From Porphyra umbilicalis (Eukaryota; Rhodophyta; Bangiophyceae; Bangiales; Bangiaceae), in the NCBI GenBank assembly GCA_002049455.2, contig KV919037.1, positions 1-64,000 on the forward strand: DNA of 64,000 bases, read 5' to 3'. The position numbers and the translations under genes were made by a program. Below are positions 22,449 through 52,614 of this stretch, piece by piece (positions within the stretch are counted from its first letter, which is position 1; each line of letters begins with the position of its first letter). The notes below the pieces were generated by a model. The model ran no database searches and was not told the origin of the DNA. It saw nothing but the letters and a program-made list of their open reading frames with translations.

Positions 22449-23275
22449 ACCGTCCCGACTGGCCCTGGCACGCTGCCAAACGACGAAGACACACCCGATT
22501 TCCTTGTGTGCGCGTCACTTGTAGCCTGCTTCAGCAGGGGCTACAAGCCCACGAATCCGGCCCGATTTACCTGGTACACCGCACGGGGCGAGCACGTAGA
22601 ACTTGTAGCTCACGTTCTGATCCCCCCCACCCCCCAGATGACGTGCGTTCGGCCCCTCTCCCACGGCCGCCGCTCCGAATTGATGCCAGTAAGGCAATCC
22701 GGCCTGTAGTACATGAAATTTATATAGTCTATGGTGCGTGTCCCAAAAATGAGACATGCGCGTTTTGTGAAGAACTGACACATCACTGCACAGCGGCAGG
22801 CGGCGTGGGGTACGAAAAACTTCTCGACTGGCCTCCATGGAAAGAGCCTCTCCCGACGCGTGCGTGGCTGAAAACTCCTTAATACCCGCCTGTGGGCCAT
22901 GTTCTGTGGACATCTCAGATAGCCCCGATCTTGGAGCCAGTCTTTTTCGGGTTCTTGGGGTTAAAGGTTTGCAACGCCAAAGCTCATGTGCTAACTGGAG
23001 CTTCGATGAGAGGTGTCCCAAATCTTGTTTTCCTCACAAGGGGCTACATGGCGGTCTTTTTCACGTTGTTATTGGTAAGGTGGTGCCCTTTTCTTGGTGC
23101 ACAAATTGTCAGCACATGCCTGCTCTAGTATATGTGCATTTGATTGGGCCGCGTGATCGTCACCTGTCGAAGTTGCAATGAATGAAACTTTCCCCCATGA
23201 CACGTCAGGATGTGCCGCCTCTGCGAACACTGCCAGGGGCTGTTCTGGAAGCATAGTGGGACCGAGTGGGTCACA

Positions 23276-23642
23276 TGTGGCAACAAAGAAGGCGCGAACA
23301 AATACCCTAGAACCACACTGACAGTACAAAAGAGAAGGACCTAAAGGGTCAACCTACCGAGAGGACCTAGACGGCGCAAAGGCGCTCAAAGGCTAGGACT
23401 CGAGAGGGACGCCAAGATTTAGATGGCGAGCAAGACGGGGCGGCGCGGGGCAAGGCCGGCGCCATAATAACAAGACGAAAACAGACGAAAAGGAGAGACG
23501 AAAGAGTAACCCCTGGCCCGAATAGGGAGCTCTACTTAGGGAGGGACAGCCGTCCCACAGGCCGCAATCCGAAGTACGGAGAGACGGGCGCAAGTCCCGG
23601 CAGGGGCATAAGTACTGGACTTAGCCCCTGCTGAATGCAACA
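23276..23642 (-). repeat. LTR, left (3' LTR in sense of gag-pol)
   Basis: 367 bp, starting TGTGG and ending CAACA (TG...CA termini). It is identical to the right LTR except for about four substitutions (two near 23393-23396, one near 23464, one near 23632). Confidence 0.97.
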
Positions 23643-23650
23643 CCCCCCTC
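23643..23650 (-). other. polypurine tract-like sequence
   Basis: On the minus strand GAGGGGGG abuts the left LTR directly, the position expected for the plus-strand primer. It is short. Confidence 0.5.
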
Positions 23651-24000
23651 GGGCCAAGACCTGGCAGTCACCCGCCAGCAAGGACGGATGCGGGGCCGCT
23701 CGGGCCGAGCAGCCGCGCGGGGGTCGCCAGCGCGAGGGCGCAGGGAGGGGCCTCCAGGCGACGCTGACCGCGTGGGGGCGCGCGCGCGGGCAGCATGCGG
23801 CGGCGAGCGGCGCCGAGGCGGACATACCGCCGTGCGGGGACCGGCGGGGGCAGTGTTGAAGAACGCGGGGCGCCGGCGGCGGGGGTCAACGACGGGGACG
23901 ACGATGCGGTCGGCGGCGGCGGAGGCGGCACGCGCGGACGCCATCGGCGTGGGCGTGCTGCCGACTTGGGCGGATGGTGGCGACCGGGGAAGCGGCGGCG

Positions 24001-26397
24001 ATGGCCTACATCGCGCCTCCCTTGCGGGACGCGTTGAGGGCGGGGCTGCGGCGGTACGCCGAGTGCGTATTGGCGGACCACGACGAGGTGCCGGAGCGGG
24101 AGCGGGTGCCGGGGCCAGACCCGCGGAACCAGCCGGCGGTCGAGCGCATGCAGGCCGGCGTACGCATGGCATACTGGCACGGCGGCATCCACGAGGTGCA
24201 CTCGCAGCGGTGCGATGGCGAGTTGGCCGTCCGCTTCAGCCGCGAGGTGGCGCGCTTCGGGACGGCGTTGCCGTCGTGGTTCGTCCGGACGGCGTACGCC
24301 TTCGTGAGGGTGAACGAGAACGAGGCGGTCCTCCGCGAGTGGGTGCCGTGGGTGGCGCACTGCTGGGGCCGCCTTATGAGCCTCATGCCGGACGCCGTGA
24401 CCCCACCGGCGGAGTACCTGACGGAGTTGTCGCTTTCGTATCTACGGACGTCGGCGGACCTCGACTACGTGCAGGCCGCCGAGGCGCAGCACCGGGAGGC
24501 GATGGACGCGGCGGCGTACTACTACGAAGAGGCGGCGGACAAAAACGCCCGTCGTGTGGACGCGGGGGCGGCGCCACGGGCGGTCCTGCCGTACGAGTGC
24601 CCGGACATCAGCTCCTGGCCGAAACCCGAGCGGGTTGGGCGGGATCTGACGCTCCTTTTGGCGGAGGGCGACCGTGTGGCGGTAAACCAAGCGCGGAAGG
24701 AGGTGGACGTTCGGGCGCGCAAGGGCGACGACGTCCCGTACCTGATGACGGCCGGCCACCATGCTAGGGGCTTGAACCGAGCCGGCTGGCGGCGCGTGCC
24801 GGAGGCGCTGGGCGAGTTGGAGCTGCCGCGGGGGCTGCACGTGGCGTACCCCACCGTGCTGTCGTACTATTACGACCGCATGATGGGGGACGACCGCAGC
24901 TGCCTGTGGGACATGTACGTGGTGGAGCGCGTGCAGCTCACCGCCATCGCGCTGCTGGCGGACCTCGCCGGCGGGCGGGTCCACCGCATCTCCCCAGCCC
25001 TTCTCCACCGGCTGGAGCGTCTCCGGCTGGACGACATGGCGGAGGGGAGTGCGGACGAGCACGCCCGGCTGCAGCGGCTGCTCCAAGGCATGGCGGTGCT
25101 GCTCCCCAAATGGGGAGACGTGGTGTCGGCTGCGGGTTTGCCGCTCGGGCAGACGTTGTTGCCGACGGAGGCGGACGACGCGGCGAACCCATACGGGTTT
25201 CGACTAGCGTTGGACGCTAGGGGCGTCGACTTCCCAAGTCGGGCCGAGCGCGCGACGTCGCGGAGCTCCACGGCGCGGGGGCCGCCGGGGGCGTCCGGGA
25301 ATGTGGGGGCGGGGCCCAGCCGGGGCGGGGGCAGCGACGCGGCCCGGGAGGACGCGGCGGCGGCAGGCTCGGGATCGCCGTCATGGCGGGCCGTGTCGCC
25401 GTCGCGGTCGTCGCCGCGGGGGCGTGCCCGGGACGACGCCCAGTGGGTGCCGTCGCGGTCCCCGTCGGCGTCGGCGTCGACAACGCGGACACGATCGCCC
25501 GTTCGGGGGTCGTCACGTCGGGCAACGGGGTCGCGCCGGGCACCGTCGCCTCAACGGCCGCGAGCGGGGCCGCGCCGGTCGCGGTCACCTACGCCCCCGC
25601 CGCGACGCACGCGGACACCGCCGCCGGGACGCGGGACGCCTCGCCCTCGGCGCGGGCCGACGCCGGGACGGGCAACGCCGCCGCCGGCGCCGTCGCAACG
25701 GAGTGGCGCGGCGGCGATGGGGGAATCCGCGGGTGGTAGCCAGCGGTCGTGGTCACCGCCAACGGCGTCGACGCGCCGGCGGAAGCCGCCGGCGTCCGCT
25801 GGAGCGTCAGGGCGGGCGGACGGCGGCGCGGCGGCGCCCCGACCGGGCGACGCGCGGCGCGGCCGGTCGCCGGTCGGTGCCGATGGGGCGGCCCGGTCGA
25901 CGGCGGGGGCAACCGGGTCGCGGCGGAGCGGGGGGACCACGCGGGGGAAACGCCCGAGGTCGTCCGAGGGGCAGGAGGTGGAGCCCCCCTACGCGGCGCA
26001 CCACAAGTGGAACCGCGTGGGGTCCATTGCGCCTGAAGGCGACGCGCTCCGGGCGCACCTTTCGGCGGCGGCCGTGAAGCGCTTGGCCTCGGCGGGCGGC
26101 GCGCCGGCTGGCGCCGTGGGGCTGGCGATCAGCCGGGTGCTGCGTAGTGGCGTGGACCGGCTGCACGCGTCCCTGCGGACGTCTAGCGACCGCACGATGG
26201 GGGAGGCGATGGACGGCGTCGTCAAGGTCGTCAAAGAACTCCGCCGCGCGACGCACCTGGAGGACGACATTGGTCGTATCCTGGACGAAGTGCGGGCGGC
26301 GGACCGCGTGGCCTCCGCCGACGAGCCGTTCGTCTATGACGACAGCAACGAGTCGGGGGGCGAGCGGCCCACGGGTCCTCGGCAGCGGCACCGCTAA
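24001..26397 (+). CDS. intact antisense gene inside the retrotransposon, unknown function
   Basis: The frame encodes 798 residues from ATG 24001 (context GCGGCGATGGCC); an in-frame ATG at 23974 would add nine. Residues 1-415 are globular, rich in Trp, Tyr, His and Met, and clearly protein-like (for example FVRTAYAFVRVNENEAVLRE and YPTVLSYYYDRMM). Residues 416-655 are Arg/Ser/Pro-rich with many RSPS/SPSR dipeptides. Residues 656-798 are globular and helical, ending acidic. Third codon positions are strongly G/C. I recognise no domain. It lies antisense to the element's genes about 330 bp inside the left LTR. Its TAA (26395-26397) interlocks with the pol TAG on the other strand (26394-26396). 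It is unbroken although pol and gag are broken. It could be a captured host gene, an accessory protein or a regulator; a structural role is possible. Confidence 0.82.
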   Translation: MAYIAPPLRDALRAGLRRYAECVLADHDEVPERERVPGPDPRNQPAVERMQAGVRMAYWHGGIHEVHSQRCDGELAVRFSREVARFGTALPSWFVRTAYAFVRVNENEAVLREWVPWVAHCWGRLMSLMPDAVTPPAEYLTELSLSYLRTSADLDYVQAAEAQHREAMDAAAYYYEEAADKNARRVDAGAAPRAVLPYECPDISSWPKPERVGRDLTLLLAEGDRVAVNQARKEVDVRARKGDDVPYLMTAGHHARGLNRAGWRRVPEALGELELPRGLHVAYPTVLSYYYDRMMGDDRSCLWDMYVVERVQLTAIALLADLAGGRVHRISPALLHRLERLRLDDMAEGSADEHARLQRLLQGMAVLLPKWGDVVSAAGLPLGQTLLPTEADDAANPYGFRLALDARGVDFPSRAERATSRSSTARGPPGASGNVGAGPSRGGGSDAAREDAAAAGSGSPSWRAVSPSRSSPRGRARDDAQWVPSRSPSASASTTRTRSPVRGSSRRATGSRRAPSPQRPRAGPRRSRSPTPPPRRTRTPPPGRGTPRPRRGPTPGRATPPPAPSQRSGAAAMGESAGGSQRSWSPPTASTRRRKPPASAGASGRADGGAAAPRPGDARRGRSPVGADGAARSTAGATGSRRSGGTTRGKRPRSSEGQEVEPPYAAHHKWNRVGSIAPEGDALRAHLSAAAVKRLASAGGAPAGAVGLAISRVLRSGVDRLHASLRTSSDRTMGEAMDGVVKVVKELRRATHLEDDIGRILDEVRAADRVASADEPFVYDDSNESGGERPTGPRQRHR

Positions 26398-29300
26398 GCG
26401 GTGGCGCAGGCGTTGACCCGTGTGGTGTGGGCCTTCTCAAAGCGGAAGATCACGACGCGCCACACGGGCGTCGAGGAGGAGGCGGTGCGGCCTGCCACCG
26501 TGAACGTAGGATAGGGTGGGTTGAGTTGCACCCGAGCGGCGCAGTAGCGCGTCGCGAGCGTCCACCAGGACTGGTGTTGCCAGCGCGGGGCGACGAGGGT
26601 GATGTCACATGGATAGGTGGTGATGCGGGCGAGGACCTGCGGTAGGAAAGAAAAGGGGGGGTTGGCCTACCCGTTCTCTACCGCCCAGTCGACCGAGAAC
26701 GCCGCGGCGCAGCCGCGCGCGGCGTCCGCGGGGGACAGCGGCAGGAACCGGGGTAGGTGGGTGGCCGCGGCGGTGGTAAACAGGTCGACCGTATGGGGGC
26801 CGCAGACCGCGTCGAGTTTCTCGAAGGCGGGGCGGCCCAATGCCCAGTGGGCAGCCGGCGGGTCGTCGGGGAACTCCGCGAGGAGGGAGGATGCCGAAAG
26901 GGCAGGGACGGTCTCCTCGTGGCTTACCGCTGGGGACGCCCAGCGCACATCGACGAGCATGGCACCCGTCTCGTCGGTGTGCTGCTGGAACGCGACGCAG
27001 ACCCAATTGGGTTGCCGCGGGGGCGGGGCGAGGACGACCGGCGTCGTCGGGAAGGCGTCGTCGGGGAGCGTAAACTTCTTCTGCTTCGCTAAGCGGATGA
27101 CGAGATGTTTCGGTAAACCCGAAATGGGTTCCCACGAATCATCGCCCCGGCCATAAGTGGCCCACCGAACTTTCGCCACGATGCCGCTATCGGTGTCGTG
27201 GCGAATAGCCAACAGCCGGTCGATTTCCCAGGTCGGATCCTCATCGGAGGAATTCAAGTCGGGGAGCGGGGCCTGTGTAAGCCGATGCGGCTGGGCATCC
27301 GGTCCCGGCACCGGGCGCGGTGCCGGTGTGACGTCGTTACTGTTGACCCGTCCTTCGCCATCGATTACGAAGTAGGTGCCGTCCGTATCGAGAATCTCGA
27401 ACGGGCCAAGGGTCTTGGGCAGCAGCTTGTGCCCCCCGCGGTGGGAGCGGAGGTAGACGAAGTCACCGACCACCAGGTCCTTGTTCTTCGGCCGTACCCG
27501 GCTGTCCCAGTCTCGCTTATAGCGAGCCTGGTACTTGTCGATGGGAAGCGCGCACCGTCGGGATGAGCTTTTTCAAGCCTTGGATGATGGCGCGCTTCAC
27601 CATGAGCGGGGAGCCATCGGCGGATGCCAGCGGGGACGAGCCAGCGAGGCCCTCAACCGTGAGGTTGGGCATACGGCGGGGGATCAGGAGGTCGAACGGC
27701 GCCATACCGGTGGCCCTATGCGGGCAGGTGTTGTACGCCAGGCTCAGGGCGGGGAGGAGGCGATCCCACTGTCGCGGGTGCTCCTCACAGAAGGCCCGTA
27801 TCTGGTTCAGCAGCGTACGGTTATACCGTTCCACCTGACCGTTAGTCTGCGGATGGTACGGCGTCGTGTACTTGCACCTCGTGCCCAACATCTTCATGAC
27901 GGCGCGGAAGAACGCGTTGTCCATCTGTCGACCCTGGTCCGATAGGACGCAGTCGGGGGGCCCGTAGGCCGCGACCCATACGGTCAGGAACGCCGACGCG
28001 ACCGTGACGGCGGTGATACGTCGGAGCGCAACCGTACGGGTTAGCTTCGAGAAGCGGTCGGACAAGACGAACACATACCGGTTGCCGTCAACCGTGTTGA
28101 GCAGCGGTCCGAGGATGTCAATGCCAACCTCGGTCAACGGTTCCTTTGACGGGAACAGGTCATGGGGGACGTATGCCGTCGCTCCTGCAGCCGGTTCTTC
28201 GCGCACGGCGGGCACTGCCGGACGAAGTCGTACAGGTCGACGATCATCGACTCCCAATAGAAGCAACGCTTCATGGTGGCGTACATCAGCTGTACCCCAG
28301 GGTGACCTTTGGTCGTCGGGTAGTGCTCGAGGCCCATCACGCGGGAGCGTAGGGCCTCGGGGATGTATACTTGCATAACGTCCGTCGTTGGCTGACGGCG
28401 CACGAGGCGGCCTTCCTCATCGAGGACGAACCGCGTCGGCTTTCCCGAGTCGATCACGGCGCGTAGCTGCTGGCATCGGCCATCCGCGCCTTGTGCGCGA
28501 AGGAGCTCCTCCGCTGTGATAGGGGGAGGCGGTGCCGGCGCCGAGAAGTTGTTGGTGTCCGTGCCCCTTGCGGCCTGAGCCAGCAGGAAGCATGGGATGT
28601 CGTCGTCCAGCTCCTTCTTGTCCAGACCCGTCGTGGGTACGCGGGACAGGGCATCGGGGACGTGGTGGTTCGCTCCCTTCTTGTACTTCACTTCGAAGTC
28701 GAACTCCGCTAGGCGGAGGCGCCAACGGAGCAGACGACCGGTGGCAGTCGTCAGCCGGTAGATCCAACTGAGGCATTCGTGGTCGGTACGCACCGTGAAC
28801 CGCGAGCCCTCCACATAGTGTCGGAGGTGGAGCACGGCTCAGACGAGGCCCAGGCACTCCTTCTCGGTGGCCGAATAGTTGCGTTGCTCGGGCTGCAGGG
28901 CCGGCTGTGAACCCCAGGGTTTCAGCTGGCCGTCCTGCTGCTCTTGGAGCAGAGCGCAGCCCAACTGGGTGTCGCACGCATCGACGTCGATGGTGAAGGG
29001 CGCTCCGCGGCGGGGGAGCGCCAGGACCGGCGGATGAAGCAGCGCGTCGCGTAGGCGCGTGAACGCTGCGGCCTGCGTCTCGGTGAACGTCGGGAGCGTG
29101 TCGCCGTACGCCTTGGTTGTCAGCTGGTTTAGGGGCGCTGCGATCCGTGCGTAGTTCGCGACGAAGCGGCGGTACACGTTCACATGCCGAGGAAGCTACG
29201 CAATTGCGTCTTGTTCGCGGGTGACCTACCTTCGCGAGCGCCTCCAGGTTCTTGTTGTGCACCCGCATCTCCCCAGGGGATATGTGTGCCCGAGGTACTC

Positions 29301-30872
29301 GACGGACGTCTGGAAGAACTGGCACTTCTTGGCCTTCAACGTGACGCCGGCCCGACCCAAGCGGGTCAGGGCTTCGTCGAGCGCTTTCACGTGGTTCTCC
29401 GGGGTGTCGGAGAAGACGATGACATCGTCGAGGTAGACAAGGCACGTTTGCCAGGTCATCCCGGACAGGATGATGTCAGGGCACGTTGGAAGGTCGCGGG
29501 AGCGTTGGTGAGGCCGAAGGCCATCTTCAGGTACTCGTACGTGCCCATGTGGCAGGTGAAAGCGGTCTTGTCGATGTCGTCCAGGGCCATGGGTATCTGC
29601 CAATACCCGGCATTGCAGTCGAGCGTTGAGAAGACGCGGGCGTCTCCCAGCGAGTCGATGCAATCCTCCATCCGCGGGATGGGATAGGAGTCCTTCTTGG
29701 TCACCGCATTGAGACGACGGTAGTCGACGCAAAAGCGTGGCGACCCGTCTTTCTTGGGGACGACAACGACAGGGCTTGCCCATTCACTGGTACTTGGTCG
29801 GACGACCTTGGCTTCCAGCATCCGATTGACCTCGTCACGGATCATGTCACGGGCATGGTGACCCGCGCGGTACGGTTGCTGCCGTATCGGCTTCGTCCCG
29901 GGTTGGACCTCCACGCGGTGGACGGTGGCGTCGATGGAGCCGAGCGTCCCGTCAGCATATACGCATGGCGGCGGATGAGTGCCTGGACATCCGGGAGTAG
30001 CCGGTCGGGTACGCCAGAGAGATCGACTTGGTCTAGCACCGCTTTGCGGCCGCGGTGGGCGATGCCGCGTCGTCAGTGACGAGCAGGCAGTCGACATCGT
30101 CGACCGGGCTAACGGTAGCGAGGATAGTTCCCTTGCGGAGGCAGACCGGTTTGTCGCTGAGGTTAGCGACTTCAACGCTGAAGCGTTGCCCCGGGACAAC
30201 GACGGCCAGGCCACGCGCCGTTTGACAGCGGTGATGCTGTGAAGGCGGTTGTACGGCGCGACTAGGACCTGACCAGCGAGGTCGGCGGTGACCAGCAGGG
30301 CCGTACGGGTTTGCGGGGGCAGCACCCGCCGCTGCGCGAGGCGCACCGTCGCATCCCTCGGGGATCGGCGGCGTTCTTTCTTGCCGCGTGCCGTGCACGA
30401 TAAGATGGGCACCGAAGCATCGGTGGACCATCTGACGCGTTGACGGCGCGGGTAGAGCGCCTCGACATGGCGGTTGATGAAACTGGTGCCGAGCAGCACG
30501 GGACGGCGAGGCGCTGGACGACGACAAAGTCGACGTCCGTGGCGAAGCCACCGGAGCGCAGGCGCAGGGTGATCATGCCTCGGGCGGAGATAGGGTTTTT
30601 ATTTGCGTCCACAATGTGGGGCAAATGAGGGCGTCGATGCAACCGCCGCTCCCAACCTTGGGCAGGGCGTCCACCCGAATGATCGAGGGCCCGGCGCCTG
30701 TATCCAGGGTCGGTGTCATCAGCCGCATCCGCGCCTCGTCAAAGCCGAGGGCCGCGGGGATGGTATACTGCCGGTATACCGGAGCCAAGACACGGTGTAC
30801 CCGTATCTTCGGACCCTGCGGGCTGGGGGCGGCACGGGGCGGCCGAGCCGCTAGCGGCACGCCCCGTGTTAG
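26394..30872 (-). pseudogene. pol: retrotransposon pol (PR-RT-RH-INT-chromodomain-NPPF domain), frame-broken
   Basis: Pol joins gag through the -1 signal at 30872-30878. In order: aspartic protease motif DTGA (30693-30704); RT with FCVDYRRLN (near 29730) and catalytic YLDD (29424-29435); RNase H with TDHECL (near 28780); integrase zinc region (CPPC near 28205) and D,D,E core (GIDILGP near 28119, SDQGRQMDN, GQVERYNR); chromodomain WEIDRLLAI...DDSWEP (27075-27230); and a final domain (26394-26828) with VDLFTTAAATHLPRF, NPPF and LVAPRWQHQSWW. The reading frame changes at least six times upstream of integrase, mostly by single-base differences. There is a TGA within RNase H (about 28836-28838) and a TAG just before NPPF (26667-26669). 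It ends at TAG 26394-26396. The final domain resembles the phage-Dam-like domain known from DIRS elements. Confidence 0.92.
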
Positions 30873-30878
30873 TTTCCC
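30833..30878 (-). promoter_or_regulatory. -1 ribosomal frameshift signal at the gag/pol junction
   Basis: On the minus strand the heptamer G GGA AAC (30878-30872) is in the gag frame and is followed at once by the gag stop TAA (30871-30869). A -1 slip enters exactly the frame that continues into protease. The nine bases CACGGGGCG (30868-30860) pair perfectly with CGCCCCGTG (30841-30833), and GCCG/CGGC pair again inside with loop CTAG, giving a strong stem at short spacing. This is the classical slippery-site plus hairpin arrangement of retroviral and retrotransposon gag-pol. Confidence 0.8.
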
Positions 30879-32749
30879 GGCCCGGCAGGGGCAGGCGGGT
30901 CCACCGTTGGACTCGGATCCGGTTGCGGATCCCCGGGCGCGGCGCCGACCGTCTCGTCTCCGCTGAGGGAGCCGGTGTCGTCCGGCACCAGCGGATCACC
31001 CCAGGGGTCCCCGGCGATGGCGGCCATCGCGTATTGCATACGACTTGGGCGTAAGGCAGGACGGGCCGCGCCAGGGGGTCCCGGGGCGACCGCAGGCGGC
31101 GCACCTGTCCCCATCGCCCGGTCGGGCGAAGGACATGCGCGGGCGTAGTGACCGAAACCGCGGCAGCGGTGGCACTGCACCTGGCTCAGGTGGACCAGAG
31201 CCGGCCGTCCCACCGGACCGCCCGGTCGGGGAGGCCATGGGGTTGCCGTTCTGGCCGACGGCGTCCGGGCCGCCGGCGGCGTAGGGTTGAATGCCTGGAA
31301 CGGCTGCTGCGGTAGAGGCCGACCCATGGGGTTCCGGCTCTGTGGCGGCGTGGCCTCCGACATCGTCGCTGGTGGCGCCGCCCAGAGGACCGGTTCGGCT
31401 TTCGCTCCGCTCCCGGAGCCCAGCTGCAGGACGCTCTTGGCCTTGGCGTACCGGTCGGCTTTGCCGGTGGTGACCTTGACCGAGCGGAGCCCATCGCCGA
31501 TCTTCTGCGAAAGCGCCACGAGTTCGTCGAAGGTGGCGCATGTGCGGTCGGCCAGCTCGGCTTGGGCACGTACCGAGGGGTGGAGCCCCTTCAGGAACAG
31601 GTACCGTAGCTGCCCCGGGTCGTACATACCCATGAGCTGTCGGCCGAGCCGCATCAACCGCTGATAGAAAGCGCGCTCGCCTTCGTCTTGGCGCTGCTCC
31701 GCGGTACGGAGGGCCATTTCGGCGGTGTGCAGGGCGTCCTCGGGTGCATAGCGAGTCAACAGATAGTTGATCGTGTGCGGGAAACTGGTACCGACGGCGC
31801 TGCCGTGTGGGCCATTTGTTTCCTGGACGAAGTCGTCCTTGGCCTCACCGCCAATGCGGTAGGCGAGGAGGTACGGGGCCTCGCCCAGAGTGACATCCAT
31901 TTCGTCCGCGGCTGTGCGGAAGCGAGTGAGGAGCGCCAGGACGGCCAAGGATCCGAGCCATCGAAGAGCGCGACGCCGTGGAACGGACCGTCCAGCAGGC
32001 GATGGCGCCTGCGGAGTTGGCTTGCTTTCGACCGGCCATACGTCGGATCCGCATTGCGGACGAGGTAGCGGCGAAAGTCGAGCAGCGACGAGAACGGGCC
32101 ATGCTTGGACGTCAAGGGGAGCGGCCAGGGGATGACCGCCATTGGCGTCGAAGCTGTCCGACCGGTGACCCGCGTGCGGGTGCGGCGCCGCGAGCGAACG
32201 CGGTGGCGCGAGGGGCCGGTGCTGTCACTGCTGCTGCTGCTGCTGGGGTCTCGGGCGGCTCGTCGTCATTGGCAGACCGCGAAGAGCGGGCGTCGGGATC
32301 CGATCGCACCCCCGCGCTCCGCGAGGCCAACGGCGACGTTGAGGCAGCGGACCTGCGCGACCGGGGCCGGTCGCGCGGGGCCGGGGTGTTTGCCGGTGTT
32401 GGGTCAGTGGGCCGGGGTCCACTGGCGGTCGACATCGGCAACGTCCCAGTTGGGTCGCGCAACGTTGTCACGTCGGCGCGTAGCTCTCGGACGGACGCGG
32501 CCAACGTACGCACGAGCGTCGTTAACTCGGCGACCGCCGATTGCTCCGCGCGACGACTAGTATGCCGAGGGAAGCGCCCGAGCCGCCCGAAGCGGGAGCC
32601 GCTGCGGTTGGATCGGGGAGACCAGAGGCATCGTGGGGAAGAGGGGGAGTCGTAGTCGCAGGGGCTGACCCGTCGGCCGTACGCCGAGCGTCAGCGCCCG
32701 TATCATGAGGGGGGGCAAAGCGCGGGGGATCGGCACCCCCGCTCGCCAT
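30869..32749 (-). pseudogene. gag: retrotransposon gag with CCHC knuckle, frame-broken
   Basis: The likely start is ATG 32747-32749 (MASGGADPPRF), 241 bases after the 5' LTR. Its 5' portion is Pro/Ala/Ser-rich, then a leucine-heptad segment (LTTLVRTLAASVRELRADV), then the capsid-like region. The last 360 codons are uninterrupted and include the gag-type segment LLTRYAPEDALHTAEMALRT through YLFLKGLHPSVRAQAEL, and the zinc knuckle CHRCRGFGHYARAC (C-X2-C-X4-H-X4-C, about 31133-31174). Frame changes occur near 32540, 32130 and 31950, so the gene as assembled is broken. It ends at TAA 30869-30871 within the frameshift site. Confidence 0.9.
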
Positions 32750-32969
32750 CGGAGATAGGTTGGCTTCTTGTCTCGAGATAGCACAAACCCGGACACGACG
32801 GCACCACGGCCCGTCGGGCACCGTCGAGCGACTCCCCCGGCCTGCAACAACAGCCGCCGGGTGACCGGGACCACAAAGTGGTCACGTCACGTGAACCGTC
32901 AGGGGCGTCCGCACCGTTGTCGCCGGGGCTCGCGAGAGGAGAGGCGTCCCTCGAAAGGGACGACGCCCT

Positions 32970-32989
32970 CTCCCCTGCTGCTCCACCAA
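32970..32989 (-). other. primer-binding-site-like sequence
   Basis: Just inside the 5' LTR the minus strand reads CT TGGTGGAGCAGCAGG. A TGG start two or three bases after the LTR is the usual layout for a tRNA primer site, but I cannot name the tRNA. Confidence 0.45.
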
Positions 32990-32990
32990 G

Positions 32991-33357
32991 TGTGGCAACA
33001 AAGAAGGCGCGAACAAATACCCTAGAACCACACTGACAGTACAAAAGAGAAGGACCTAAAGGGTCAACCTACCGAGAGGACCTAGACGGCGCAAAGGCGC
33101 TCAAAGGCTAGGACTCGAGAGGGACGCCAAGATTTAGAAGCCGAGCAAGACGGGGCGGCGCGGGGCAAGGCCGGCGCCGTAATAACAAGACGAAAACAGA
33201 CGAAAAGGAGAGACGAAAGAGTAACCCCTGGCCCGAATAGGGAGCTCTACTTAGGGAGGGACAGCCGTCCCACAGGCCGCAATCCGAAGTACGGAGAGAC
33301 GGGCGCAAGTCCCGGCAGGGGCATAAGTACTGGACTTAGCCCCTGCCGAATGCAACA
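32991..33357 (-). repeat. LTR, right (5' LTR in sense of gag-pol)
   Basis: 367 bp, about 98.9 percent identical to 23276-23642, with the same TGTGG and CAACA termini. It is followed by the TCACA target duplication at 33358-33362. Confidence 0.97.
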
Positions 33358-33362
33358 TCACA

Positions 33363-35314
33363 TTACATCGTCGGACCCTTGCAGAAGGCCAGTGGGCCGA
33401 GAAAAAAAGAAAAAACCGCCATGTCTTATTTTTGGGACACGCACCATAGTGCGCTTCTTATCAAAGTACACGTCTAAAGTATGTGCCCCACTTTCCCGAC
33501 GATCACAGCACAACTACAGGTTATTGTGCCCCGGGAAAGGTCGGGCCCGTTAGATAAGAGGTGCCCCAACGACCTCACTCGCGCAGGTCTCAGATTTCTG
33601 GCCCGACCCCGACCTTTCCCCGGCCCGAACTGCGGATCAAGTTACGGAAGCCTCTTTGGCCAATCACATGCCCGTGTCCAACATTAGCTAGCGATCGAGC
33701 GCAAGCGCGCTCTAAGGCTGTGTCTTGATGGCGCGTGCACGTGCACGTGATTGGGTCCGAATATGGATATAAGTCCGTCGAGAACGCGTGGTTCGACAAC
33801 CGCTGTCTTGACGGGCCACCACAACTGTCGTGATTAGATTGTTTGAAACGCAGCAACTGGAGTCGGCAGATCGCATCTCCCTTCTATCGCAAGGAAACTT
33901 TCGGACACAGCACGCCTGCTACGTTGCTGCAACCACACACGCAGTGTAGTACCACAATCTAGGGGGTTACATCAGACGGAGGGAAGTAACGGCCGTCTTA
34001 GCCGCTCGCGCGACACCCGCTATGGGACTCGAGGTCCGGGAAGTCGGGCCGATCGAAACGCCAAGACATCGAGACACGGTTTACTTGCCGGCGACGACGG
34101 TGCCTCCCACCGTCGTCGCCCTTCGTCCTAAAAAGGGTGGAACCCGTCGCCCGGGTCCAATTTCCCCGATTGGGAATTGACCCGGGCCGTCATCAACCAA
34201 TGCAGATAATTCCCTCCATGCATGTCAAGTCCCGCGAAGCGATCATTACAGACGAGGGGGAGTAACAATCCCACGCGCAACGCGCTGCACCCGCCGCGTG
34301 GCGCCCGGTCAGCCGTCGCTTGGCGCGCCCTCTCGGGCGCGCCAACCCGGCCCCCCGTGGGGCCTGCGAGTCGCGGTGCGGCGGGTCGGGTACGCTCCCC
34401 CGGTGGCTGGGGCCGAGCAGCGGGGCGGGCCCGTCGTCCCCGCTCCCGCGTCGCCGTCCCGCTGACAACCACCGCCGCCGGTGTCGTCGCCCCCCGCCGG
34501 TCGCCTCGTCCCCCGGCGCCTCCGGCGCACCCGCGGTGGTCCTCGTCCGCACGGGGCCCCGTAGTACTACACGCAGGAGCGGGCCCCACCGGACACGATC
34601 CGCCACATTGCTGTCATGTGGCCACTAGAGGTGCGTAGCACCAGGTAGGACGGACCGCCCCAGCACTGCCCTGAAAGGAGTGATGGGCCTCACCCGACAC
34701 GATCCGTCAGGGTGCTGTCAGCAGCCCACCGTGGCAAACCCAGCCCCGACGTGATGCAATATGTCACAATCCCATTGGGTCTTACAGATTGAACCTGCAG
34801 GCGCACGGACTGCCATGCGGACGCCGCGGCAGGCGGCGCCTGCTGGCATCCAGGCCGGAGGGGTGGGCTGTGGCAGCCACCCCCCCCCCGTAGCATTCCA
34901 TCAGGCTGTGTGGGTATAGTACTGGCGACAACCGCGAGGGTAGGGTAGGAAGCGCGTTTTACTCGGACAGTGTGGGCCTGACGGCTCAACACAAGCGCCG
35001 TACCTCTTTTGATGGGCCACTCTCCTCCGCCCCGCCGCTCATACGACTCGCCGCCAGGTGTCCCTCGACTGCAACAGCTGCCGCATCCTAGCGGGTGCGT
35101 CGACGAGTGGCGTCGGCCTGAGTTGTTTCGATCCACCCGCCCTCCGAGGTGAGTCGTCTTGGTCCGCCTCATGACCTCTGCTTCGCAGTGGTGCTTACTA
35201 TCTACCAACCTCGTCGCTGTACTTTCCCTCTCTCTCCAGTCGGTGTGTCTGGGCCCCGCCACTCTACCTGGTACCACCTGCCCGCCGCTCTTGCCTTCAC
35301 CAACACCGCCCACC
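33363..35314. other. intergenic between retrotransposon and Harbinger gene
   Basis: No supported gene. Two related segments (about 34580-34622 and 34686-34728) share GACACGATCCG and GCTGTCA and could be part of a transposon end. The rest is unremarkable. Confidence 0.4.
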
Positions 35315-36846
35315 ATGGCTCCGCGTGGTTCGGCCCTGGACGAGAGTCGCGGTCGCGCCGTTGGCCGCGGAAGCCGGCGGTCAAGAATGATGAGCCGACG
35401 TGGGCACGCTGTTGCCACGCGGCGTTGGGCCTTCTTCGCGGCCGCCTTCGTCGCCGCCATTTTGCCGCAAGTTTCGACAGCGGCTTGTGCGACGCCACCC
35501 CGCGTGCACACTGTTGGTGCCCGTGCGCGATTGTGCATAAACTCTGGTCTCAACCATGTGTTGGAGGATGACTTTCGATTGCTTTTTCGTATGGCGGCGG
35601 AGGACTTTTGGGCTTTTCATGCGGCGGTGGAGCACCGCGTGGCGATGGACGAGGGAATGGCGACGCTCTCGAGCGGGTGGCCCATCCCTTCAGAATGACG
35701 ACTTGCCCTCGGGTTGCGTATGCTAGCGGGGGCGTCGTACCTGGAATGCATGCTTGCATTTGGGGTTAGTCGTTCCATGGTGTATGCTATTTTTCATCAG
35801 GTATGTGCGCCACTTGTCTTCGTTTTGAGCTGCCTTACTGCGTGCGGGCCCGGTCCCTTGCGTCCGGCTTGTATCCTCTTAAGCATTCTGCGACTTTGTG
35901 GCTCAAGTTCGGCTGTGGGCAACTAGCTAACACCGTAACGATATCGCCACTTGTTGCTTGCTCTCGAACTCTCGGTGCGGACATTTTTCGTTGCTCGCCT
36001 TCTTGCTTGTGGGTGTGCTCGTGGTTGTCATCTTTTTGGTTGCAGGTTGTAAATGCGCTCGACAACGATCCCTTTTTGGACAACATCCACTTCCCGTCCA
36101 CCTCCGAACAGTTTGCTTCACAAAGCGAGTTGTTTTCGCGTGGCGGGCACAATCCGCTGCGCGGGTGCGTCTCTGCCGTTGGTGGTATCGCCCTACGCAT
36201 CCGCCGGCCTCGTGTCGCGGAGGTGCCCAACCCGTCGTCCTACTGGACGCGCAAGGGCTTCTTCGCTATCATTGTGCAGGCTGCTGTTGGTGGGGACTAC
36301 AAGGTCCAGTTTCTGTCGACGGTGACGGCGGGGTCGTGCCACGACAGCAAGGCCTTCTCGGCCTGCGGGCTAGCCGAGCTGCTGAAAGGGGGGGACGGCC
36401 TACCTCAGGGGTACTGGGTGGCAGGGGATGATGCCTACGTCGCCAGCTTGCGTCTGCTAACGCCCTGGACGGGTAACAACCTCCCTTGGGAGAAGGACTC
36501 CTTCAACTATTACCACAGCTCCTCTCGCACCTTCGTTGAGCAAGTTTTTGGTCAGATTGTTGGTCGGTGGGGTATCTTGTGGAGGTCGATTCGCTTCTCT
36601 GTGTATCGTGCTTCTGTAATCATGCGTGTATGCGTGCGTCTGCACAACTTTTTGTGTGAGAGGAACCTCCCGCCACCCGCCTTGCTCCCGGAAGACGGAT
36701 CTGGAGGGACCGGGGAGGTGATTATGCAAGACCAGTGCGACCTGGATGACCGCCTCCGTGTGCGTCGGCGTGACAGGGAGCCTTGTCCTTTGCGAGTGGC
36801 GCTGACTCGCCGACTGGAGCGGTTGCAGTACCGCCGACCCGCCTGA
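35315..36846 (+). pseudogene. PIF/Harbinger-type DDE transposase, inactivated
   Basis: ATG at 35315 in good context (CACCATGGC). Exon 1 runs to 35800 (…HQ) and is joined in frame to exon 2 at 36046 across a GT-AG intron (35801-36045, donor GTATGT, acceptor TTGCAG). Exon 1 contains FRMAAEDFWAF and the helix-turn-helix RMLAGASYLECMLAFGVSRS typical of Harbinger nucleases. Exon 2 has SCHDSKAF (second catalytic Asp), AGDDAYVASLRLLTPW, and FVEQVFGQIVGRWGIL (catalytic Glu). Two lesions are visible: TGA at about 35696-35698 after SE, in frame with what follows, and GGT at 36181-36183 where the family has the first catalytic Asp (AVxGIA). Either would abolish transposition. Terminal inverted repeats were not found. 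Confidence 0.85.
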
Positions 36847-40282: not shown

Positions 40283-40288
40283 TTACAG
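40269..40288. repeat. 20-bp palindrome over the pogo stop codon
   Basis: CTGTAAGCGCGCGCTTACAG is self-complementary and includes the minus-strand TAA at 40283-40285. It may act in 3' end formation or mark a transposon end. Confidence 0.8.
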
Positions 40289-41887
40289 ATTCCTCTCTTC
40301 CGCCACCTCACCTGCAGCGACACGCACGGCCGTGCGCGCGGCCGCAGCGCCGGCACGCTCCGCCCGCGCCGACGCCCGAACCTCCTTGTTTGCGTCGCGG
40401 TCCTTGGCTGCCTGGGACTTGCGCTCTTCTACCGCCCTCTTGGCAGCCGCGCGCTCCTCCAGTAACGCAATGACCGCCTCAGTGGTAACGTGGCACCCGG
40501 CGCCCGTGTCGAGCGTGCCGTTCTTCAAAACTCTGGCGCTTGACGCCAGCGACCGCCCATCCTTAAAGAACCGAGCCGCCACGTCCGCCCAAGCCTCGTC
40601 AGGGGAGTTGTCCGTCGCGTAAGTGCGGCTCAGCTCAAACCTGGAATCTGCAAATATGGCAGGATCGACCGGGTGGATGCCCGTCCGCCCGAACCCCGCC
40701 TTTATATTGGCAGGCGTCATAGACAGGTGATAGGCTTGTGTTATCATCTCACATGCCCCGTACACGTTCAGGTTGGAGCGGGAGTTGTCGGGGCTGTTGG
40801 CGAAGACACTCAGCCGCTGCCGCGCAAACGCCTTCATCGGGCCAAAGACGGCGACGTCGAGGGGCTGCGTCGCGTGCGAGGTGTGAGCCGGCAAGGCGTA
40901 CGCAATCACATTGTTGTCCCGGAACTTGCGGAGCACCGGGATGGACAGGTGGCTCGCGTACCTGTCAAATGTCACCATGGTCTTTCCAGTGGCGCGTAAC
41001 TCCGTCGTCTGCCGTAGGTAGCTGTCCACCCACACGCCCATGATGTCGCTGTTGACCCCCGCTGGGGTCTTGTAACAAACGATTGCTCCCGGGGGCAGGA
41101 AGTCCGCCGGCGTCTGCGTCTCCCCATCCACCAGCGTCCGGTACTTGGCCTCCACCCCAGGTAGCACCACCAGGGGTGTGAGCGGCCGGCCATCGGCCGT
41201 GATGGAGGCGGCCAGCGTGATGTGGTCAGCGTCGCCGCCCACCGTGACGCCATGCGTCACGGACTGCCCCACCTCAGAAGACGACAGAACCTTCTCAGCA
41301 GAGGTCGTCAGCTTCCCAAACGAGAATCCCATCTCATCCCAATTGCTCATGCGCTCGGGAGTAATCTTGTTCTCGTCAATAAGGTGGGCCAGCATCGAAA
41401 AGTGCGACGCAAAGTTGTCCTTTGTCATCGCCTTGGCTCGCACCGTCTCCAACACATTCTCCCGCCGGAGCCGCATGCTGTTCCGCAGGCAGAAGAGGCG
41501 CACCCAGTGCTTTGACGGGCGCCCGTCCGTCCAATTGGCCTGCTGCTCGTCACGTAGGTCCTTAATAATGTCGGCGACGGCCTCCACCAGGTGCCGCTTC
41601 GAGATGTTAAACCCGTTCTTCTGGAAGTTGCCGATGGCTTCGGCTAGCTGCACCTCTTGAGCACGAGTGAGCTTGGTGCGACGACCAGGCCGATGGAGGC
41701 CGGGGATGGGGGTCTGGAGCGCCCTCGCCAGGGTGCCGTAGGACAGACGATGGTGGGCTGGCCGGCCAGCATTGACGACTGCCAAAGCCGCCCGACGCGT
41801 GTGCGTTGACGAAGACGCGAGGCGCACCGCCTGCTGCAAAGCGGCGTTGCGAATGACCTTGGTGTTAGCCCGTGTTCTTGGCGACAT
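40283..41887 (-). CDS. pogo-like (Tc1/mariner superfamily) transposase, intact
   Basis: The frame gives 534 residues from ATG 41885-41887 (MSPRTRANTK). Pogo-type transposases are nuclear enzymes with a psq/CENP-B-like DNA-binding N-terminus and a DDE_1 catalytic core. Here the N-terminal 140 residues are basic and helical (LTRAQEVQLAEAIGNFQKNG, then GRPSKHWVRLF as in CENP-B HTH). The catalytic core shows NWDEMGFSFG (Asp 184), VTFDRYASH (Asp 308) and TSHATQPLDVAVF (Asp 344), consistent with a complete DDD triad. The C-terminus is a charged Ala/Arg/Glu helix. No frame break is present, so the protein may be functional. GGGGCGTG repeats lie upstream (41984-42075) and a palindrome spans the stop; element ends were not identified. 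Confidence 0.9.
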   Translation of the reverse strand: MSPRTRANTKVIRNAALQQAVRLASSSTHTRRAALAVVNAGRPAHHRLSYGTLARALQTPIPGLHRPGRRTKLTRAQEVQLAEAIGNFQKNGFNISKRHLVEAVADIIKDLRDEQQANWTDGRPSKHWVRLFCLRNSMRLRRENVLETVRAKAMTKDNFASHFSMLAHLIDENKITPERMSNWDEMGFSFGKLTTSAEKVLSSSEVGQSVTHGVTVGGDADHITLAASITADGRPLTPLVVLPGVEAKYRTLVDGETQTPADFLPPGAIVCYKTPAGVNSDIMGVWVDSYLRQTTELRATGKTMVTFDRYASHLSIPVLRKFRDNNVIAYALPAHTSHATQPLDVAVFGPMKAFARQRLSVFANSPDNSRSNLNVYGACEMITQAYHLSMTPANIKAGFGRTGIHPVDPAIFADSRFELSRTYATDNSPDEAWADVAARFFKDGRSLASSARVLKNGTLDTGAGCHVTTEAVIALLEERAAAKRAVEERKSQAAKDRDANKEVRASARAERAGAAAARTAVRVAAGEVAEERNL

Positions 41888-41983
41888 GTCCCTGGCCACG
41901 TGCAGCACCGCGATCAAATTGCAAGAATATTGGGTACTTTAAATCGCCTATCAAGTAAGTGCCAAAACATGGGGGCTACATCA

Positions 41984-42709: not shown

Positions 42710-43622
42710 ATGGACGACCTCTTTGCCGCCGCCGCCGACGCGGTGGCGCTCGCCGGCGCCGCCGGCCTGTCGGTCGGCGACGCGGCGCGCGCCGGCGCCG
42801 CCGCCCTCGCCGACGCGCACGCGGCGTCGGGCGGGGGCGCCGCCGCCGCCGCGGCCGCCGCCGCGTCGGCCGCCGCGGCGGCGGCGCCCACCCTCGACGC
42901 GGCCGTGTGCGCGTGGTTGGGCGCCGCCTTTGCGCGTCGCGCGGGGGAGTTTACCGTCTACGCGCCGGGGCCCGACGCGGGGGGCGTCGTCGGCACCGTC
43001 ACTGAAGTGACCGACGACGCCGCGGCGGCGGCGGCGGCAGCCGCGTCGGCGGCGGGGGCGGGGGCGGGGGCGGGGGCGGGGGCGGGTGCCCCCCCCCCCC
43101 CCCCCCCACGCCGCCGACGCGGCGCGCCTCCTCGTCGTTGCCACCGACGCGGTGCAGCTGCGGTGCCTCGGCTGGCACGAGGCGGAGCACTACCCCCTCA
43201 CCGCCAATGGGCGGCGGGCGCTCGCCGCCGTCGGCGCCGCGCGCGGCGGCGGCGCCCTCCAATCCGACTTGGCGCCGCGCCTCGGCTGCTCCCCGGCGGT
43301 GTTGCACCACCACGTGATGGGGCTCGTCGCGGGGGACCTCGTGCAGCGCGTGCGGGTGCGGTATCGGCTGGCGGGGGGGGGGGGGCGGGGGGGGGGGGGG
43401 GGGGGGGGGCTCCCGTACACCTCCCGCGTCACCCTGCCCCGGTGGTCGGCGCGGCCGGCCGACGCGGTCGACGAGGATGAGGACGATGCGGAGGACGCGG
43501 TGGAGGTGGACGGGGGGGACGTCGGCGCCGCCGCCGTTGCCTCTGCCGCCGCCGCCGCCGCCGCCGCGTCCGCCGCCGCTGCCACTCCTGGCGGTGGGGA
43601 CGGCGGCGGCGGCGGCGCCCTT

Positions 43623-43672
<50 letters not shown>

Positions 43673-44114
43673 TGCCGGCAAGCCGTCACCCGCCGCCTGG
43701 ACGGCCGCCGCGGACCGCGTGCGCAACGCGGCGACGCTGCAGGCGCGCGTTGCGGCGGTCCTCGGCGCGCTCGCGCGGTCCCCCCTCCCCGGGCGGCTCC
43801 CGCAGCGGGACCTCAAGGTCGCCCTCCTCCCCGACGGCGCGCGGGAGGTTGGCCTCCCCCTCAAACCGTTTGAGACGCTCCGCCACCGCGTCTGGCGGGG
43901 CGTGCGCAACGCGCTCCTCCGGGGGGGGCTCGTCACCGAAGCCGTTGCGCGGGCGGTGACGCCCCACGGGCGCGTCGCGCCGACGCTGTGTGTTGTGCTG
44001 ACGCCGCCGACGGCGGCGGCGTTGGCGGGCGTGCCCCTCGCGGGGCCGCACCCGCTGCTCGTCGCCGCGGGGGGGGGGGGGGGGGGGGAGGGGGGGGCGG
44101 GGGGGGGGGGACCC

Positions 44115-44150
<36 letters not shown>

Positions 44151-45991
44151 ACGAGGGCGGCGGCGACGGCGGCGGTGGCGGCGGCGGTGACGGCGACGGC
44201 GACGATGGCACCCTGCGCGTCGGCGCGTACCTCGTGGAAGTCGCGCCGTCGGTGCAGGTGCGGGCGGTGTTGGGGGCGGCCGGCTCCCGCGGCGCCTCCG
44301 TGCCCGACGTGCGGGGGGTGCTCGGGTCGGTCCTCGGGCGCAAGCTCCTGACGCGCCTCGTGGCGGCCGTGGCGGCGGCCGCCGACGCGGCGGCGGTGCG
44401 GGAGCACCAGGGCAAGGCCCTCCACAAGCGCTACGTGCTCCCGGGGGGGGGGGGGGGGGGGGGGTGGACGCGGCCGACGCGGCGTGGCTCGCGCCGCTCT
44501 TTGGGGGGGGGGGGGGGGGGCCGCCGCTGCCGGGGGAGGCAGAGGTGCTGGCGGCGGCGGGGGGGGGAGGGGAGACCCCGACGGTGATTGCGGCGGCGGC
44601 GGCGGCGGCGGCGGCGGCCACCCCCTCCGTGGCCGACGCTGCGCCGCCGCCGGTGGTCGCGTCGGCGGCCGCCGCGTCGACGGCGGCGGCCAAGGCGGCG
44701 GCCGCCGCCGCCGCCGCCGCCGACGGGCCCATCCCCACCCCCCCCCCCCCCCCCCCCCCCCCCCACGGCGGCGGGCCCCCCCCCGTCGTTGCCGCGCGCC
44801 TCGCCGCCGCGTCGGCGGCGGCCAAGGCGGCGGCCGCGGCGGCGCCGCGCACGCCCGGCGCCCCCCCCCCTCCCTCACCGCCCTCACGCGGCAGGCGCTG
44901 CTGCGGGCGCTCCTCGCCGAGCAGCGGGCGCTCGGTCGGGAGGCGCTCGGGCGGCTCATGGCGGCGGCGGAGCGCGCCCCGTTTGCGCGCATGGACCGCA
45001 AAGTGATTACGCGCGTCGTCGACGCGCTCGTCGCCGCGGGCGACGCCGTCGAGGTCGTCCTCCCGCGCGTGCGGTGCCCCTTGTACCAGCCGCCGTCGGG
45101 GGGGGGGGGGGGGGACCCCCGCCCTCCCCCGCCGCGGCCGCCACCCCCACCCCCACCCCCGCCCCCGCCGCCGCCGCCGCCGCCGCCGCCGCCTCCGCCA
45201 CACCCGCCGCCACGCCGCCGCCGCTGCCGGCGGTGGCGCGCGTCGCCGGCATGGTGCGCCTGCTGCTGCTGCCGGGCGTGCCGACCGACGCGCCCGAGGT
45301 GGTGGCCCTCCTCGCCGTGCCGCCGCCGGGCGCGTCGGTGACGCCGATGCAGGTCGGCCTCGCCGACCGCCGCCGCCGGTTTGGGTCGGGCGGGGGGGGG
45401 AGGGCGCCTCCGACCCGCCGTCAGGGGGTCGACGGCCCGCCGCCGCGGCGGCGGGGGCGGCGGCGGCCGTGCCGTCCCCGCCGCGGGCGCCCGTGACGCC
45501 GACGCAAGCCGTCGCCGCCGCGCTCGCCGCGTCGACGGCCGCCGCGTCGGCGGCGCGCGGCTTCCCCGGGTGCCCCCTCCCCGACGGTGACGTGGACGCG
45601 GTGCCCCTCCCCGACCGCCCCGGCGTGCGCGGGCGGCGGTCGCTCGCGCGGCTCCTCCCCGCCCGCCGGCGGGTGAGCGCCTCGGCGGCGGCGGCGGTCG
45701 GCTTTGCGCCGCTCCTCGCCGCCGTGCACCCGACGCGGTCGGCGGCGCTCGCGCACCAGTCGATGCTGCTGCTGTTGTACGCGCGGCATTACGGGCTCGT
45801 GGCGGCAACGATGGTGCGCGCGCGGGAGTTCCACTTGGCCCTCCTCCGCCTGTACGTGTGGGGGGGGGGGGACAGGGGGGGGCGGGGGGGGGCGACCACC
45901 GACCGCCGGCGCGCCCGACGGCGCGCCCGCCGTCGACGCGGCGGCGGCGGCGGCAGCGGCGGGGGCGGGGGCGGCGGCGGACGTCGGGGCG

Positions 45992-46022
<31 letters not shown>

Positions 46023-49000: not shown

Positions 49001-49593
49001 TGCCGCCGCCAGGCGTGCCGGCGGCGGCGGGCACGCCGGCCACTGCGGCGGGCGGCGGGGCCACCTCGGCGGCGGCGCCGTCTGACGTGCGGGCGGGGCT
49101 GCCCGAGGCGCCACGCGCCGTGGCCGACGCGCCGCCGACGGCGGCAGCCCCCCCCCCGCCACGGCAGCGTCGGCAGGCGCGGCGCCCGCCGTGCCGCCGC
49201 CCGCGTCTCCCGCACCGGCGGCGGGCGGCGATCCTGGCGCCGTGTCGTTTGGCGCCGCCCCGCCGCCGCCGCCGTCGGCGGGGCATCCCCCTCCCCCCGT
49301 CGCCGACGAGACGCTCTCGGCGGCGCAGGCGGCGGCGCAGGCGGCGTTGGCGGCGGCCATGGCGGAAGTGGACGACGCGGATGCAGAGGCGGCGGCGGCG
49401 GCGCCGACACCCGCGCCGGTGCTGCCGGGCGGGGGGGGGGGGGGGGGGGGGGGGGCGCCGCTTGGGATGGGGTGGGGGGGGAGCGCGCGCCGAGCGGCTG
49501 CCGAGCAGCTCGAGCGGGGAGGAGGGGGACGAGGAGGAGGAGGCGGGGGGCGCCACCCCCACGCAGAGTGTGCCGCCACCCGCCATGACGCCA

Positions 49594-49665
<72 letters not shown>

Positions 49666-52359: not shown

Positions 52360-52394
<35 letters not shown>

Positions 52395-52614
52395 GGGGCG
52401 GGGAGGGGGGGCGGGCGCTGCCCGCGCGGCGGCGCGGCGGGCGCTCGTGGCGCGCCTATCGTCGCCCGCGACGGGGGTGGTGACGCTGCCGCCCGAGCCG
52501 CTGGACGACCTCGACGATGATGTGCCCGAGCTGACGGGCCGCGGGCGGGGGGTGGAAACGCACTACTGGGTGTCGCTGGCGTGTGTCGACGCGCTGCCCG
52601 AGGCGGCGCGGTGA
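42710..52614 (+). CDS. TFIIIC largest subunit (B-block-binding, GTF3C1/tau138 type), frame-broken at homopolymers
   Basis: TFIIIC binds the internal B-box of tRNA genes to recruit RNA polymerase III. From ATG 42710 (MDDLFAAAADAVAL) the reading can be followed to TGA 52614 only by changing frame at G/C runs (near 43090, 44080, 44450, 44740, 45110, 46470, 47235, 47590 and others). Recognisable parts: a winged helix (LAPRLGCSPAVLHHHVMGLV, near 43280); further winged helices (DVRGVLGSVLGRKLLTRLVA near 44320, MDRKVITRVVDALVAAGD near 45010); the signature YGLVAATMVRAREFHLAL (near 45790); FLITAALEAMSLH followed by RRLMGTLRRLGVVAL (46026-46250); a Myb-like RRRRGQSWPP (48490); and ALKAAFVALRARNVIV (50640). 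This order matches plant/animal GTF3C1. Poly-Ala, Gly and Pro inserts inflate it to about 3,300 codons. Frame breaks may be assembly indels; a pseudogene is less likely given the conserved segments. Confidence 0.75.

Follow-up and report, generated by a model that had tools for sequence, protein, structure and literature searches.

A candidate protein-coding gene antisense to gag-pol in LTR retrotransposons of the red alga Porphyra umbilicalis

A 64,000-nucleotide stretch of the Porphyra umbilicalis genome (contig KV919037.1, positions 1 to 64,000 of the forward strand; hereafter the window) carries at 23276-33357 a 10,082-bp Ty3-type, probably chromoviral, long terminal repeat (LTR) retrotransposon, the sense strand of which is the minus strand. 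On the plus strand, an open reading frame (ORF) of 798 codons lies in the stretch that separates pol from the 3' LTR, and the locus raises the question of whether this antisense frame (aORF, 24001-26397) is a gene and, if so, what its product may do. A first inspection of the letters (hereafter the sequence-only reading) had reported the 798-codon ORF, which was found again at that place, and had singled it out as a gene inside the LTR pair. The guanine plus cytosine (GC) content of the window is 67.2% and that of the third positions of the aORF 0.87; Bangiales genomes have 64-68% GC, against 37-57% in other red algae, according to PMC7423979. Given that ORF length is no evidence in a GC-rich genome, selection was tested across copies. 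From this comparison the antisense frame is, with little doubt, a real protein-coding gene under purifying selection.

Selection on the antisense frame

The host genome assembly (83.8 Mb, 665 contigs) was searched with the first 400 residues of the aORF and gave 52 matches, of which the best 30 were taken as family-1 loci (L009-L038). The whole frame to its natural stop is kept in eight of these 30 copies. The three insertions or deletions common to several copies (63, 75 and 6 bases) are all multiples of three, as are 7 of the 24 private ones (a contig end accounts for one of these). Shared variants, those found in two or more copies, comprise 135 synonymous changes, against 83.5 expected, and 149 nonsynonymous changes, against 200.6 expected, corresponding to a ratio of nonsynonymous to synonymous rates (omega, dN/dS) of about 0.46 (binomial p 9e-11), while private variants give a ratio of about 0.84 (p 0.005). 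As judged from these substitutions, the contrast between shared and private variants is the pattern of a gene that is selected while the element multiplies and mostly released after insertion.

The signal is tied to the frame. Shared-variant omega in the other frames of the aORF region is 1.1-1.8, except for the minus frame sharing the wobble position, where it is 0.56; this mirror frame contains 6-9 stops in each of the eight intact copies. None of the three plus frames of the LTR, used as a control, has a significant synonymous excess (lowest p 0.14 for shared variants), and in the stretch following the aORF (26398-26650) shared variants give p of at least 0.08 in all three plus frames. Comparison of the aORF with a 2.5-kb stretch of pol in the same 11 copies gave a synonymous divergence (dS) of 0.0459 versus 0.0458 and an omega of 0.42 versus 0.28, indicating that aORF and pol are inherited together and that the constraint on the aORF is somewhat weaker. 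Pol and the aORF converge tail to tail: the letters CTAA at 26394-26397 interlock the pol stop (26396-26394, minus strand) with the aORF stop (26395-26397, plus strand). These letters are present in 28 of the 30 copies, 27 by motif search and L011 by its letters, and in 25 of the 27 motif-positive copies no stop interrupts the pol frame over at least 56 codons upstream of CTAA. A pol ending at 26667 was considered and rejected, as the pol frame of sister copies continues to the interlocked stop.

Nevertheless, there are observations in family 1 that weigh against a conserved gene with its own promoter. The frame is broken or incomplete in 22 of the 30 copies. Within the leader (23643-23973), the frame that continues the gene has 23 synonymous changes against 12.9 expected (omega 0.39, p 0.002), the remaining two plus frames being without synonymous excess, and this frame is open upstream of 24001 for just about 46 codons (845 codons from stop to stop). 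Either coding starts upstream of the ATG used or the control is unclean; by this signal the gene may start upstream of 24001, and it has 807 codons if counted from the in-frame ATG at 23974. The leader value does not overturn the far stronger signal within the aORF. Furthermore, among the eight copies with an intact ORF the leader has diverged more than the LTR (0.042 versus 0.024), and therefore no promoter conservation is shown.

It might be argued that high GC content alone has produced the aORF, which would then not be a gene. Long ORFs are common on both strands of the window, the third positions of the aORF are themselves GC-rich, and both the wobble-sharing minus frame and the leader frame have lowered omega values. 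However, over the whole ORF the shared-variant omega is lowest in the plus frame, the mirror frame is interrupted in every intact copy, the shared insertions and deletions all preserve the frame, and long frames have stayed open in a second family of elements, described below, at considerable synonymous divergence. Frame-specific selection and the shared in-frame changes rule out an ORF made by GC content, despite the unclean leader control, and this explanation is scarcely credible.

A second family and copies without the gene

An integrase search, in which the best 150 of 1453 candidates were scored, returned 36 matches at 87-100% identity (family 1), one at 77% (C460) and 113 at 54-58% (family 2). 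Judged from these matches, family 2 is more abundant than family 1 and has, at the equivalent place, an antisense gene of divergent sequence. Its C204 copy has a 728-codon antisense ORF and a 392-bp direct repeat that fits as LTR; the sequence outside the left LTR-like repeat matches that outside the right one (84%; L059:3134-3320, L042:4628-4809), as if the copy sat within a repeated host stretch. The antisense ORF of the intermediate C460 copy matches residues 305-779 of the window protein (34% identity, E 2e-35), its earlier part being unmatched, and a 605-nt inverted repeat (95% identity, 246 nt between the arms, L039:3110-4565) lies upstream of this truncated ORF. A search with a 448-residue family-2 aORF query, in which the best 94 of 440 candidates were scored, gave 67 matches without stops in the matched stretch. 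Further family-2 subfamilies were seen at 61-71% identity over 145 residues (C24:299206, C188:99275, C215:26475, C496:23021 and others), one of which has a 774-codon open frame.

The family-2 gene also bears the marks of constraint. YN00 estimates of omega are 0.20-0.23 for C204 against four family-2 copies, 0.13 at dS 1.43 for C204 against C496 and C215, and 0.21 for C496 against C215; four further family-2 pairs have NG86 values of 0.18-0.22. In three family-2 subfamilies 578-653 codons remain open at dS up to 1.4. Among the matches listed, integrase and aORF lying within 6.5 kb of each other are on opposite strands in 33 of 33 family-1 and 46 of 46 family-2 pairs, and the antisense gene is paired with 33 of the 36 family-1 integrase hits. 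With a second, shorter query (best 150 of 360 candidates) at least 57 of the 113 family-2 integrase hits are paired with an antisense match; the single same-strand match that appears among these 57 pairs would, to judge by its distance, belong to a neighbouring copy.

Three findings in family 2 point the other way. The six comparisons among the four copies other than C204 give omega values of 0.46-0.69, at most 56 of the 113 integrase hits are without an antisense match in reach, and five of the six gene-less loci that were read carry one common deleted form (L060-L062, L064, L065). This form keeps residues ~47-93 at 49-62% identity, one of the five loci also keeping residues 1-42, and the pol ends of the five are 94.6-96.7% identical to that of C204; in two of them, on C24 and C64, the pol frames are open for 1580 and 1505 codons. 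In the sixth gene-less locus there is no aORF remnant, and similarity to C204 breaks off inside the pol end. Given that a gene-less derivative has still multiplied, the antisense gene is not needed in cis. Gene-less copies may obtain the product from relatives, or the element may manage without it; the selection seen on the gene-bearing lineages favours supply by relatives. The remnants are far less similar than the pol ends, which hints at recombination between subfamilies, and L060 and L061 contain many internal repeats.

The check proposed in the sequence-only reading, whether the antisense ORF is conserved in other copies at low dN/dS, comes out in favour of the gene through the 30 near-full copies, purifying selection on the plus frame and the second family. 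Copies that lack or break the ORF, which it had named as evidence against its own proposal, do occur in the proportions given above for both families, and the selection statistics outweigh them.

Whether the antisense genes of the two families are related was addressed by protein and profile comparison. BLASTP of family-1 against family-2 proteins gave nothing significant (E 0.25). With hhalign, 275 N-terminal columns align in order (E 3.5e-4, probability 37%), and the N-terminal parts alone give E 6.7e-4 and a score of 35.0, which is reached by none of 200 column shuffles (highest 26.2), the reversed N-terminal profile scoring 13.7. Against a common origin, the HHalign probability of the N-domain match is just 27-37%, and the C-terminal parts give no signal between the two families, 135 of 200 shuffles reaching their score; C-terminal homology, at chance level, is unsupported. 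On balance, these profiles make it likely that the N-terminal domains of both genes share an origin, and the antisense gene probably predates the split of the two families, the integrases of which are ~56% identical. The sequence-only reading had left it undecided whether the gene was independently acquired or retained. Retention is preferred because the N-terminal domain seems older than the family split, which recent acquisition fits less well; independence from the antisense genes of plants is suggested only by the absence of a match to the plant family TRP28 (below).

The antisense protein and its possible role

The window protein is laid out as an N-terminal region (residues ~1-415), a basic low-complexity linker (~415-670) and a C-terminal region (~679-772). 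AlphaFold models of the window and C204 proteins are poor (mean pLDDT, the predicted local distance difference test, 31.7 each), and helices are for this reason just suggested: in the window protein at residues 6-377 and 679-772 with none between, and in the C204 protein in approximately the same arrangement, accompanied by a few short strands. The linker of the window protein has a net charge of +26 per 120 residues, and clusters resembling nuclear localization signals (NLSs) are clear in family 1. In family 2 the linker is less basic (+13 in C204, +6 in P0012) and its NLS-like clusters are sparse; like the poor models, this weighs against the reading proposed below.

Searches of Pfam, NCBIfam and PDB sequences with the aORF proteins, and of PHROGs with the window protein only, gave no useful match; the single weak PDB match (E 0.23, profile positions 483-550) probably falls in the low-complexity linker. 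In scans of viral and prokaryote contigs no relative was confirmed. In the protein database, with ~8000 candidates scored each, 11 family-1 and 34 family-2 relatives were found, and 131 relatives with a family-2 profile (~8000 candidates scored); none of the relatives among the matches listed (120 of the 131 for that profile) contains a Pfam domain. Three candidate identities were tried and rejected. One family-2 stretch was suggestive by eye of features of TRP28 (PF04195), yet PF04195 matched none of 35 proteins at E up to 10 (11 family-1, 24 family-2); it also had no match in the host genome, a search for which the control genomes gave no plant positive control. A second copy of the Gag capsid was rejected when the score of the N-domain against the element's own gag was reached by 36 of 60 shuffles in family 1 and 21 of 60 in family 2. 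An SR-protein-like linker, rich in serine and arginine, was likewise rejected, the frequency of RS/SR dipeptides being not above composition.

The reading considered somewhat probable from these sequences is that the element is ambisense and that the antisense product is an accessory protein that acts in trans, enters the nucleus and binds nucleic acid. Gag-pol would be read from a putative promoter in the 5' LTR on one strand and the second gene on the other strand, from a putative promoter within the 3' LTR or immediately internal to it, so that the genes meet tail to tail; the antisense promoter, or an additional 5' portion of the gene, may lie in the leader (23643-24000). The protein would have helical N- and C-terminal domains joined by a strongly basic, disordered linker with NLS-like clusters; in the nucleus it would bind RNA or DNA of the element and help its expression, RNA handling or integration. 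Its mode of action would resemble that of gene23 of the maize element Grande or of HBZ of human T-cell leukaemia virus, no kinship with either being implied. Acting in trans, it would allow gene-less derivatives to multiply beside intact relatives. More tentatively, and with the balance slightly against it, red-algal chromoviruses may have evolved an ambisense genome of their own, the antisense protein being unrelated to TRP28, shared by families whose integrases differ by 44% and serving as a trans-acting common good that gene-less derivatives exploit.

Two other roles may be weighed against that of an accessory protein. The protein may be an anti-silencing factor that counters host silencing of the family in trans, from which gene-less relatives would also profit. 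Plants have anti-silencing proteins encoded by transposable elements (VANC of VANDAL elements). The coexistence of gene-less derivatives, close to C204 in their pol ends, with gene-bearing relatives would fit such a role, as would the basic, possibly nucleic-acid-binding linker. However, the protein matches no described family in the libraries searched, anti-silencing proteins having not been compared directly, and the evidence does not separate this role from one in transcription or RNA export; it is regarded as unlikely. It is also conceivable that the RNA matters as well, convergent transcription yielding double-stranded RNA (dsRNA) against gag-pol that sets copy number, with the protein as an added product. 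Due to the tail-to-tail layout, a gag-pol RNA reaching the 3' LTR would be complementary to the antisense mRNA, and a role of this type has been proposed for plant elements (PMC7264820). A pure RNA role, however, fails to explain the shared in-frame insertions and deletions and the synonymous bias tied to the frame, and this explanation is the more doubtful of the two.

The element, its surroundings and known systems

The 3' LTR (23276-23642) and the 5' LTR (32991-33357), both on the minus strand, are 367 bp long with TG..CA ends and differ by four mismatches, and the target-site duplication TCACA flanks the element at 23271-23275 and 33358-33362. Coordinates and flanking letters thus agree with the repeats and duplication described in the sequence-only reading. 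The leader between the 3' LTR and the antisense gene ends in a minus-strand G-run that suits a polypurine tract, and the expected primer-binding-site region, on the inner side of the 5' LTR (32951-32990, minus), contains TGG from its third base. The minus-strand order is gag ORF, RVT_1, RT_RNaseH, Integrase_H2C2, rve and chromodomain (Pfam); the LTR pair, the target-site duplication and the order of reverse transcriptase, RNase H and integrase place the element with Ty3/Metaviridae. Gag (30869-31948, minus) is an ORF of 359 residues with a zinc knuckle of 17.5 bits, under the Pfam cut-off of 20.8. Pol, with reverse transcriptase, RNase H, integrase and chromodomain, occupies 26394-30551 (minus), the upper limit being an ORF boundary and the start putative; the chromodomain is a weak match to PF00385 (E 3.5e-4, 20.9 bits, under the cut-off of 25.1) that covers residues 82-123 in the last ORF of pol. 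The complete gag-pol order given in the sequence-only reading stands, but the pol of this copy is not intact: nine deletions of 1-2 bases, together with one stop, set it apart from sister copies over 2.5 kb (27600-30500). These deletions lie mostly outside base runs, and the aORF of the same copy is intact with no frameshift; pol alone may have decayed, or the assembly may be at fault.

A 38-nt inverted repeat (89%) at 22729-22766 and 33412-33449 brackets the whole LTR element, as if it had landed inside a DNA transposon with terminal inverted repeats. Elsewhere in the window, 35803-36846 holds an uninterrupted frame of 347 residues with DDE_Tnp_4, which a 401-residue ORF beside the C204 element (L042:4565-5770) resembles by eye; 40283-41917 holds a minus-strand ORF of 544 residues with DDE_1; and 6951-8963 holds an ORF of 670 residues with two ABC_tran stretches and ABC_tran_Xtn, presumably an ABC-F-like protein. 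At 43190-52870 long ORFs of up to 1073 residues overlap on both strands, probably an effect of GC content; those of 1073 and 1067 residues have no Pfam match. In the host genome, 10 of 11 phycobilisome-family matches are on contig C665, beside ORFs that are presumably atpB, atpE and apc genes.

The red-algal gene, together with gene-less sister copies in which pol is open, provides a natural comparison for its role and for action in cis or in trans. Annotators who meet a long antisense frame in a GC-rich algal element should allow for a real gene and test it for selection. Grande, of maize, belongs to the Tat lineage, a different one from that of the present element. Like the present gene, Grande gene23 is antisense in the 3' internal region; its product is described as nuclear and its promoter as lying upstream of it (PMC7264820). 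The present gene may be likened to gene23 by its position and its basic, possibly nuclear protein, the sequences having not been compared. Retand elements (Tat) likewise carry an antisense ORF in the interval from pol to the 3' LTR, and TRP28, proposed as a DNA-binding regulator, is found in 97% of recently active Retand clusters (PMC11963269); they are, however, non-chromoviruses of flowering plants with TRP28 (PF04195), to which the present antisense proteins gave no match. Certain antisense ORF products of plants are reported to be nuclear or are predicted to bind DNA, and regulation has been proposed as their role; the function of these genes is given as unknown (PMC7264820, PMC11963269).

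Outside plants, the fungal element Boty has an antisense ORF before its 3' LTR (PMC7264820), and human T-cell leukaemia virus type 1 (HTLV-1) has near its 3' LTR the antisense gene HBZ, for which that LTR supplies an antisense promoter (PMC10186651), HTLV-1 being, unlike the present element, a retrovirus of people. Among the titles and abstract openings listed from the open literature, none described an antisense gene in an LTR element of a red alga. Antisense genes of LTR retrotransposons have already been described in plants, in a fungal element and in retroviruses. Should red-algal chromoviruses have become ambisense independently, retroelements would have arrived repeatedly at the solution of an antisense gene placed before the 3' LTR, which would then be no peculiarity of plants.

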